From NCBI GenBank assembly GCA_021108275.1, contig JAIORD010000027.1, positions 1 to 64,000 of the forward strand: DNA of 64,000 bases, read 5' to 3'. Below the pieces are notes generated by a model. It worked only from the letters and a program-made list of their open reading frames with translations, searched no databases and was not told the origin of the DNA. Below are positions 47,871-49,987 of the stretch, piece after piece. Position numbers and translations under genes: made by a program. This DNA is from Methanococcoides sp. (lineage in GTDB: Archaea > Halobacteriota > Methanosarcinia > Methanosarcinales > Methanosarcinaceae). The stretch's first letter is position 1; each line of letters opens with the position of its first letter.

Positions 47871-49133
47871 ATGAAAAAAGTAATCCTTGTACAGAGAAAT
47901 GAGCCTGGTTCTGACAATGGTGTAAATGAGGGAAAGCTTGCCGAGCTTAAGGAACTGGCAAGAGCTGCCCATTACCAGGTAGTGGGTGTGCTGACTCAGA
48001 CGCGTTATCCTGACCGCAAGTATCAGGTAGGTAGGGGGAAGGTCGATGAACTGGCGGTGTTTGTGGAGGTCTCAGGTGCTGATAAAGTGATTTTCAATCA
48101 TCAATTGTCAACTACGCAGATCTATAATATCTCTGAGACCTGTAAATGTGAGGTAATTGACAGGTTCAATCTGATCCTTGAGATATTTGCGTCAAGAGCT
48201 ACTACAAGGCGTGCAAAATTACAGGTGGAACTTGCAAGGTTGCAGTATGAGTTGCCAAAAGCAAGGTCAATAGTTTCTTTGCTTAAAAAGGATGAACGTC
48301 CTGGTTTTATGGGTCTGGGCGGTTATGAGGATTCCTACGAGCAGGATGTTAAGAAAAGGATAGTCAGGATAAGGAACGAAATTCATAGTTCCTGTAAGAG
48401 CAGTGAGTCACTTCGCTCTTTCAGACATGAAAGGGGCTTTTCCCTCGTTGCCCTGGCAGGTTATACGAACGCAGGTAAAAGCACTCTTTTCCAGTCGCTT
48501 GTGAAGGAAGGGACTGAAGTTGAAGACATGCTTTTCACGACATTGTCCCCTACTACACGTTCCCTTTCGATAAATCAGAGGCGTGTGCTTCTTACCGATA
48601 CAGTTGGTTTTATCGAGGACCTTCCTCATTGGATGGTCGATGCATTTCGGTCCACCCTTGATGAGATATTTCTTGCGGACGTTATCCTCCTTGTGGTGGA
48701 TATGAGTGATCCTGTAGAGGTAATAAGGCAAAAACTTGTGGTAAGTCATGACATTTTCTGGAAGCGCATCGAAGGCGTGGAAATTGTTACTGTTTTGAAT
48801 AAGGTCGATATGGTGGAACCGGATGATCTCAAAAGGAAAGTTGATGAGATAAGCTATCTTGCACCCCATCCTGTGCTCATCTCTGCAAGTTCGGGTGACG
48901 GCTTTGAAGCGCTTGTGGATAAGATCTATGAGAATCTGCCTCAGTGGGATCGTTCCCGGATCGCTTTGGATATGTCCGAAGAGAGTCTTTCTATGGTGTC
49001 ATGGCTTTATGATGAAGGTATAGTCCATAGCATCGATTACGGTGAACAGATCGTTCTGGATATCGAGGCCCGGGAAGAGATATTACAAAAAGTCAGTAAA
49101 TTCAATATTGATGATCATAGGGTTCTGAGCTAA
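47871..49133 (+). CDS. hflX: GTPase HflX
   Basis: 420 residues. N-terminal HflX domain with TRYPDRKYQVGRGKVDELA near 45 and the family glycine-rich linker region, then the G domain: G1 GYTNAGKSTLFQSL near 197, G3 DTVGFIEDLPHWMVDAF near 243, G4 TVLNKVDMV near 305 and G5 ISASSGDG near 340. It associates with the large ribosomal subunit and can split stalled ribosomes. AAGGTCGATT precedes the ATG. Confidence 0.94.
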   Translation: MKKVILVQRNEPGSDNGVNEGKLAELKELARAAHYQVVGVLTQTRYPDRKYQVGRGKVDELAVFVEVSGADKVIFNHQLSTTQIYNISETCKCEVIDRFNLILEIFASRATTRRAKLQVELARLQYELPKARSIVSLLKKDERPGFMGLGGYEDSYEQDVKKRIVRIRNEIHSSCKSSESLRSFRHERGFSLVALAGYTNAGKSTLFQSLVKEGTEVEDMLFTTLSPTTRSLSINQRRVLLTDTVGFIEDLPHWMVDAFRSTLDEIFLADVILLVVDMSDPVEVIRQKLVVSHDIFWKRIEGVEIVTVLNKVDMVEPDDLKRKVDEISYLAPHPVLISASSGDGFEALVDKIYENLPQWDRSRIALDMSEESLSMVSWLYDEGIVHSIDYGEQIVLDIEAREEILQKVSKFNIDDHRVLS

Positions 49134-49144
49134 TTGCCAATTCG

Positions 49145-49191
49145 TTCGTGTTCACACGAAACGTTTATATTATAAGAGATCGTTCTATTAA
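49145..49191 (+). promoter_or_regulatory. promoter of the candidate small RNA, with an upstream inverted repeat
   Basis: TTCGTG-TTCA-CACGAA (49145-49160) is a perfect 6-bp inverted repeat that could end hflX or act as an operator. It runs into BRE/TATA (GAAACG then TTTATATT at 49164-49171). With archaeal spacing the start is at about 49192-49195. Confidence 0.6.
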
Positions 49192-49278
49192 ATGCGAACG
49201 GGTTTCCTCCAAACCCCCAAAGTACCACCACAAACTATGATTTAATTGAATCTTTCGTCCCGTTCGCTTTCTTTTCTT
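49192..49278 (+). ncRNA. candidate small RNA with a CCUCC hairpin loop (or leaderless 17-codon ORF)
   Basis: A closed unit with its own promoter. GCGAACGGG (49194-49202) is complementary to CCCGTTCGC (49259-49267), closing an RNA of about 75 nt, followed by a T-rich tail (49268-49278). Inside, GGGTTT (49200-49205) and AAACCC (49211-49216) pair around the loop CCTCC (49206-49210), the anti-Shine-Dalgarno core. The two foldings share GGG and are alternatives. The same DNA contains ATG 49192 to TAA 49245, a 17-codon frame starting at the predicted +1, so a leaderless peptide is the competing reading. Confidence 0.6.
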
Positions 49279-49315
49279 CAAAAAGTTTATAAGTTTAGAG
49301 AACAGCCTTCTATAC

Positions 49316-49987
49316 ATGCGTTTTGATCTTCACGTGCATTCCTGTTTTTCAAAGGACAGTAATTCCGATCCTGCTTCTATTCTTGAATATGCGAAAATTA
49401 ACGGGCTTGATGGTGTGGCGATCTGCGACCATGATACCCGTGAGGGGGGTCTTGTTTGTTCTCGTCTGGCAAAGGAGACCAATTCGGATATAATTGTTAT
49501 TCCTGGTATAGAGGTAACTTCTTCTAAGGGCCATATCCTTGTCCTTGACCCGAAAGGGGACATTGAATCAGGCATGACCCCTGAGGAAACTATTGAGCGT
49601 GCAAGGGAACTTGGTGCTGTTGTGATAATCCCGCATCCTTTTAAGGTAACCTCGCATGGAATTGGTTATGTGGATGGGTTGGATGCTGATGCAGTGGAAG
49701 TACTGAATTCCAGATGTGTGACCGGTTTTGCCAACAACAAGGCCAGGAAGGTCACAGGAGTTTTAGGGTTTCCGCAGGTAGGGGGAAGTGATTCACATGA
49801 GGCGAAGATGGTTGGTTGTTCATATACTGAGATCGATGCTAAGGATAGGACGCTTGAGTCGGTGCTTGAGGCCATACGTAGCGGTAAGGTCAGACCGGGC
49901 GGAAAAAGAACACCGGTATCACATGTTTTGAAACAGGTAGTTGTTGGAAGAATTAAAAAAGCTAAAAAGGCTTTAGGTAAAGCCTGA
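49316..49987 (+). CDS. PHP-domain metal-dependent phosphoesterase
   Basis: 223 residues of the PHP family. Metal motifs: FDLHVHSCFSKDS at the start, AICDHDTREGG near 37, IPGIEVTSSKGH near 62, IPHPFK near 104 and GGSDSHEAKM near 161, together the full histidine/aspartate set. The basic C-terminus (RIKKAKKALGKA) is unusual. Substrate unknown; small phosphoesters or nucleotides are possible. A TATA box (TTTATAAG, 49286-49293) is 30 bp before the ATG and no Shine-Dalgarno is seen, so the mRNA is probably leaderless. Confidence 0.85.
   Translation: MRFDLHVHSCFSKDSNSDPASILEYAKINGLDGVAICDHDTREGGLVCSRLAKETNSDIIVIPGIEVTSSKGHILVLDPKGDIESGMTPEETIERARELGAVVIIPHPFKVTSHGIGYVDGLDADAVEVLNSRCVTGFANNKARKVTGVLGFPQVGGSDSHEAKMVGCSYTEIDAKDRTLESVLEAIRSGKVRPGGKRTPVSHVLKQVVVGRIKKAKKALGKA

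Follow-up and report, generated by a model that had tools for sequence, protein, structure and literature searches.

Introduction

Methanosarcinales are major methane makers, and the means by which the strict anaerobes behind most biological methane detect oxygen and survive it are an open question. MsvR is a main candidate for the oxygen sensor, and its targets are poorly known. In bacteria, stress small RNAs such as OxyS, a member of the OxyR regulon, and those of the RyhB type stand under a redox- or metal-responsive factor. MsvR has been described as a redox-sensitive repressor of methanogens, with the published box TTCGTAN4TACGAA; the M. acetivorans protein binds its box only when reduced, box B, located next to the BRE, likely blocks that element, and since one copy of the motif inside a gene was not bound by MaMsvR in vitro, the motif by itself is insufficient (PMC3729527). 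As for small RNAs, sRNA154 of M. mazei is described as having two stem-loops and being induced by nitrogen limitation, and parts of sRNA154 and sRNA41 mask ribosome binding sites (PMC5867862). For Methanolobus psychrophilus, nine sRNAs are reported that are conserved, induced by cold and preceded by a common motif, the “cold box” (PMC5378194), and sRNA catalogues exist for both organisms (PMC5867862, PMC5378194).

The locus discussed here belongs to a Methanococcoides sp. genome, in a window (the whole stretch of DNA that was analysed) of 64,000 nucleotides. Like the autoregulated msvR promoter (PMC3729527), the promoter at this locus has, immediately 5' of BRE/TATA, a box that agrees in sequence and spacing, and the same genome contains an msvR gene whose promoter is similar. 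Unlike in the MsvR regulon as described, however, the gene downstream would be a small RNA, and a small RNA under MsvR is not reported in the literature that we searched; the box here is a candidate, recognised from sequence. With OxyS and RyhB the window RNA would share its working principle, a small RNA that acts in trans under the control of a redox- or metal-responsive factor, but it is unrelated to them, archaeal, and built from just one stem and a long loop poor in G, and the factor would here be a repressor released by oxidation, whereas there it is an activator. sRNA154 and sRNA41 are also intergenic small RNAs of the same archaeal family, but sRNA154 is described with two stem-loops in place of the one closing stem and MsvR box seen here; sRNA41 could be identical with a paralog of the window RNA. 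The “cold box” sRNAs are likewise several highly conserved intergenic sRNAs with a common motif ahead of their promoters, and they come from a genus in which this RNA family occurs, but their reported inducer is cold.

Results

The element and its closing stem

The element lies within the 182 bp that separate hflX from a PHP-domain gene, with both flanking genes on the same strand (Table 1). A sequence-only reading had noticed here a BRE/TATA, a terminal complementarity of 9 bp, a T-rich tail, and an inner hairpin with a CCTCC loop that shares its GGG with the outer stem, all of which are present in the sequence, and had proposed either a small RNA with its own promoter or a leaderless 17-codon gene. 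Absent from it was the 16-bp dyad TTCGTGTTCACACGAA, located directly 5' of the TATA box. The 5' end of the RNA is predicted at about 49190-49193 and its 3' end within the T-rich tail.

Table 1. Features of the small RNA locus and its surroundings in the window.
Feature	Position	Strand	Basis or remark
hflX, ribosome-associated GTPase HflX	47871-49133	+	NCBIfam TIGR03156, 306 bits; conserved upstream neighbour
Candidate MsvR box, 16-bp palindrome TTCGTG-TTCA-CACGAA (TTCGTGTTCACACGAA)	49145-49160	+	direct sequence
BRE/TATA of small RNA gene, ACGTTTATATTATAAG	49161-49176	+	direct sequence
TATA of small RNA gene, TTTATATT	49164-49171	+	
Small RNA gene (predicted)	~49190-49280	+	covariance-model match 49189-49279, E 5e-15, own genome
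ORF, 17 codons	49192-49245	+	direct sequence
5' arm of closing stem, GCGAACGGG	49194-49202	+	covariation
Inner hairpin GGGTTT-CCTCC-AAACCC	49200-49216	+	GGG common to inner and outer stem
Single-stranded loop, C/A/U-rich, G-poor; contains CCTCC, ACCCCC, GTACCACCACA	49203-49258	+	folds, composition
3' arm of closing stem, CCCGTTCGC	49259-49267	+	covariation
T-rich tail TTTCTTTTCTTC, likely termination region	49268-49279	+	downstream T content of members
TATA of PHP gene, GTTTATAA	49285-49292	+	
PHP-domain metallohydrolase gene	49316-49987	+	Pfam PHP, PHP_C; conserved downstream neighbour

The 79-nt fold has an energy of -16.0 kcal/mol (z = -2.9), equalled by 2 of 200 shuffles, and is dominated by the outer 9-bp stem, which is ahead by about 9 kcal/mol of the inner hairpin in the 5' third of the RNA (-6.5 kcal/mol). 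In a set of 25 different arm pairs, 99.1% of the cells are paired and five of the nine base pairs have changes on both sides, a pairing and covariation score that none of 500 shuffles reached and that must be read knowing that members were found by a model containing the closing stem, which favours pairing. The same result was obtained with 41 full-length members, and controls in which the arms were slid were 24-46% paired, against 99% for the true closing stem. Compensatory changes from C-G to U-A and from A-U to G-C nevertheless extend through entire subfamilies. When run unconstrained on the 41 members, RNAalifold predicts the closing stem alone, with no conserved pairs inside the loop, and of ten members folded one by one all kept the stem, eight of them with z < -4. 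The loop, which is strand-biased and carries U- and C-tracts, contains 5% G across the family. Judging from sequence, the window element is a structured non-coding RNA in which one 9-bp closing stem holds open a large, unstructured and G-poor loop.

Relatives, copies and genomic loci

A DNA search found homologs of the element in nine other genomes of Methanococcoides, and the hflX-PHP gaps of Methanolobus have identical arms with differing C-rich loops. The exact pattern of both arms occurs in 37 of 112 genomes of the family, in four genera, and a reversed control gave 0. A covariance model built from 34 copies (R1) matched 92 of the 112 genomes and 13 of the 14 genera, including copies with other arms (GTGAGCGGG/CCCGCTCAC, GCTAGCGGG/CCCGCTAGC and GGGACCGGG). 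At a threshold of E <= 0.01, a second model (R2) matched 173/186 Methanosarcinales genomes (117 of the 118 good ones) and 26/27 genera, as well as, in a sample of the phylum, at least 22 genomes of one further family within the same class; outside the class its matches, in 7 of about 280 genomes, are at background level. Copies per genome are upper limits, as the palindromic arms also yield weak mirror matches, and five were found in the window's own genome: the window copy, three in tandem on contig C9 and one on C20. The simplest members are about 50 nt long (e.g. GUGAGCGGGUAACAACGUUUUUUAACUAACCCCCACUCCCCUACCCGCUCAC). A loop core of 12-13 nt, ACCCCCACUCCCC, recurs in 45 of 129 distinct elements when up to two mismatches are allowed, and it does so across orders; within Methanolobus some loops are kept base by base (GUACCACCAAUCCUAUCCAACCACCC).

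The element has no match in Rfam 15 at the gathering score, and the best match at a loose threshold is a chance one (E 4.1, opposite strand). These RNAs form a previously unnamed family, near-universal in Methanosarcinales, multi-copy and missing from Rfam; neither its definition nor a link to MsvR was found in the literature searched, and some copies may already be unnamed transcripts in the sRNA catalogues of M. mazei and M. psychrophilus. The small RNA of the sequence-only reading is supported by homologs throughout the order, by a covarying stem and by the z score of its fold. One genome of another class of the phylum (G487) has, at C15:4521-4570, a truncated copy whose stem is GTGAACGGG/CCCGTTCAC; it is accompanied by an MsvR box and preceded by hflX (67% identity), and we attribute this copy to gene transfer or contamination.

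The copy 3' of hflX is kept in Methanococcoides, Methanolobus, a genus that we take to be of the Methanosarcina type, and further Methanosarcinaceae genera; most of the Methanosarcinaceae genera examined have the gene in the hflX-PHP gap. Two other loci are separate and stable: one holds three clustered copies, with rfcL on one side and a winged-helix gene on the other, and the second holds a copy adjoining a MacB-like permease. As these paralogs have no common neighbour, they are independent units and not leaders of one gene. In the own genome, the three tandem copies (C9:39169-40625) are flanked by a MacB-like permease on one side and a CofD-like gene on the other, and a diverged CofD-like fragment (~56% identity) found between the RNA copies points to local duplication of the RNA plus its neighbour. 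Two other genomes (G020 and G123) have two MsvR-box RNA genes in tandem within a single hflX-PHP gap, the second gene of this type having GCGGACGGA as its 5' arm and CCAATACCCCCATTAACTATCCCC in its loop. A match to PYLIS_5 (L163 3985-4084; Rfam RF02512, a transposase with in-frame pyrrolysine) was also observed near the three-copy RNA cluster.

The promoter and its candidate MsvR box

In the 41 members, positions -30 to -26 from the stem are 98% T/A, with an A-rich BRE at -35 to -31, and the location of this TATA box places the start 1-5 nt ahead of the stem. The 30 nt downstream of the members are 46-51% T. In silico, the RNA has its own promoter, at a fixed distance and separate from the mRNA of its neighbour.

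In 17 of the 41 members, a palindrome of the form TTCGY-N6-RCGAA directly adjoins the BRE, always in the same position, and the copy in the window, one of the 17, fits the published MsvR site (TTCGTAN4TACGAA / TTCGN7-9CGAA). Of the 112 family genomes, 76, from 9 of the 14 genera, have a pattern combining the box with an RNA arm, and its spacing to the RNA is nearly always 33 nt; the reversed control gave 5 matches in all, and a few of the true-pattern matches are due to chance. With a stricter pattern of box plus TATA, all 13 matches in 74 genomes were upstream of a family RNA, and the reversed control gave 0. One V4R protein is encoded in the own genome, and it is the MsvR equivalog (NF053755, 283 bits); its promoter carries the box TTCGTTACATAGCGAA before TTTATATA, and TTCGTTACATAGCGAA-CGTTTATATA closely resembles TTCGTGTTCACACGAA-ACGTTTATAT, the promoter of the RNA. 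Copies without the box include the three tandem ones on C9 and those at hflX in Methanolobus, a genus in which it is the paralog beside the permease that has a box, and such boxless paralogs must be controlled some other way. A second exact MsvR-like box, TTCGTATGTGTGCGAA, was seen in the own genome (C13:5320-5335, minus strand) upstream of a gene resembling an A-type (IscA/HesB-like) iron-sulfur carrier, with a geometry to TATA unlike that of the RNA promoter.

Target search

Across the family, loops show no greater preference for gene starts than shuffled loops do; the loop of the window copy has a weak preference for start regions, a value equally low being reached by 1 of 25 shuffles. A 21-fold enrichment of GGAGGA was seen ahead of gene starts that were themselves chosen partly by SD score. 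Anti-SD words are below expectation in the loops (117 4-mers against 141 expected, 21 5-mers against 36), and the words that exceed dinucleotide shuffles are CCCCA, CCAA, ACCCC and UUUUU. UUUCCUCCA of the window copy is exactly complementary to TGGAGGAAA, which two relatives have at their S-layer start. The complement of the loop core has nine matches in the own genome, four of which are the sRNA genes themselves; the other five are near chance (reversed control 4), although two of them fall on the starts of genes for secreted proteins, and comparison of the true S-layer gene starts in two relatives did not make this a conserved target.

Discussion

Our results make it probable that the window holds an MsvR-repressed small RNA, released on oxidation, that acts in trans through its loop. 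The family and its stem, the synteny, the box with its conservation and the msvR gene with a like promoter are all observed, and we infer from them transcription, binding by MsvR and induction by oxidants. How the RNA would act is the weakest part of the proposal. In the reduced cell, MsvR would sit on the BRE and repress the hflX-PHP copy as it represses its own gene; based on what is published for the protein, oxidised MsvR would let go of the promoter and an RNA of about 75-90 nt would be made. With an MsvR recognition site in its promoter, the RNA is probably switched on when cells meet an oxidant, and it would then act in trans through the exposed loop, most likely by pairing of its C-tracts with G-rich start regions of mRNAs, whose translation or stability would be affected. 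Such trans action on mRNAs ranks first in our view, with protein binding close behind, as a loop core so deeply conserved, even between orders, is explained equally well by a constant partner and by mRNA pairing. It is conceivable, and we say so tentatively, that these loop-presenting RNAs act throughout the order on one constant partner (either a stable RNA or a protein that binds RNA or serves in translation), and that one copy has been wired to MsvR. CsrB and 6S RNA act on protein partners, and a reading modelled on them would make the RNA a decoy whose U- and C-tracts (CCCCA, CCACC, UUUUU) hold a conserved single-strand-binding protein. The enrichment of CCCCA, CCAA, ACCCC and UUUUU in loops where anti-SD words show none, the recurrence of the core, and the fact that paralog loops differ in sequence yet keep the same word grammar all speak for a decoy; no partner is known, however, and the base-by-base loop conservation within Methanolobus goes beyond the needs of a loose protein site, so that we regard this explanation as possible but somewhat doubtful.

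The sequence-only reading had suggested pairing with GGAGG sites by a CCUCC that two alternative hairpins would hide or free. The complementarity at the S-layer start, the enrichment of GGAGGA and the slight preference of the window loop for start regions agree with pairing, but many orthologs lack CCUCC and the corresponding words are unenriched in the family; the inner hairpin, moreover, is found in the closest relatives only, and the outer stem is both the stronger of the two and the only one that RNAalifold keeps. We therefore abandon the switch and consider an anti-SD RNA of this kind unlikely; as a family function anti-SD pairing is not supported, and what stands is the CCUCC of the window copy, for which a member-specific effect on GGAGG sites is possible. 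The 17-codon gene has an ATG at the predicted start, and a precedent in the leaderless small ORFs on small RNAs of Methanosarcina mazei (PMC11456600), but we deem it extremely improbable: the frame is broken by 1-nt indels in relatives 92-97% identical over the element (single-base insertions in the two nearest ones), start codon (ATG or TTG) and length (5 to over 30 codons) vary among members, and it is the stem pairs that are conserved, the MRTG stub being simply the stem. A cis-acting leader of the PHP gene, either riboswitch or attenuator, would explain an element on the same strand and 48 nt upstream of the PHP start; the PHP gene, however, has its own TATA behind the T-rich tail, and paralogs occur at other loci, often facing away from their neighbours (rfcL, wHTH, permease), which makes a leader very unlikely. 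That the element is a MITE-like inverted repeat of mobile DNA without RNA function, as its perfect inverted ends and multiple, sometimes tandem, copies might suggest, is hardly tenable in view of loci conserved over genera, conserved promoter spacing, a strand-biased loop with so little G, and viral contigs that have no genuine copies. A viral or mobile origin was in fact looked for, and none of 56 viral-contig stretches that matched the stem pattern was of the family type, those with C/G-skewed loops being GC-rich, coding-like chance matches.

If the tentative reading with one constant partner and a copy wired to MsvR is true, Methanosarcinales would have an RNA-based first response to oxygen, and this would be the first such circuit known in methanogens. 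A conserved small RNA with an MsvR box in most genomes offers a concrete target in the genetically tractable Methanosarcina, and the family would add to the few clade-wide regulatory RNA families in archaea.

Two further observations concern possible contacts of these RNAs. In several Methanosarcina-type and Methanococcoides copies (L147, L148, L162), CCTCCT follows the stem (e.g. CGC-TATTCCTCCTTT), and this could be an anti-SD word placed outside the loop, on the 3' tail. Near-complements of the loop core, TGGGAGTGGGGG and GGGGAGTGGGAG, lie exactly on the starts of two genes for secreted proteins (C3:75397 and C6:106224), an S-layer-domain/PKD protein and a subtilisin-like protease, and it is possible, going by complementarity, that these starts are targets of the C9 and C20 copies.
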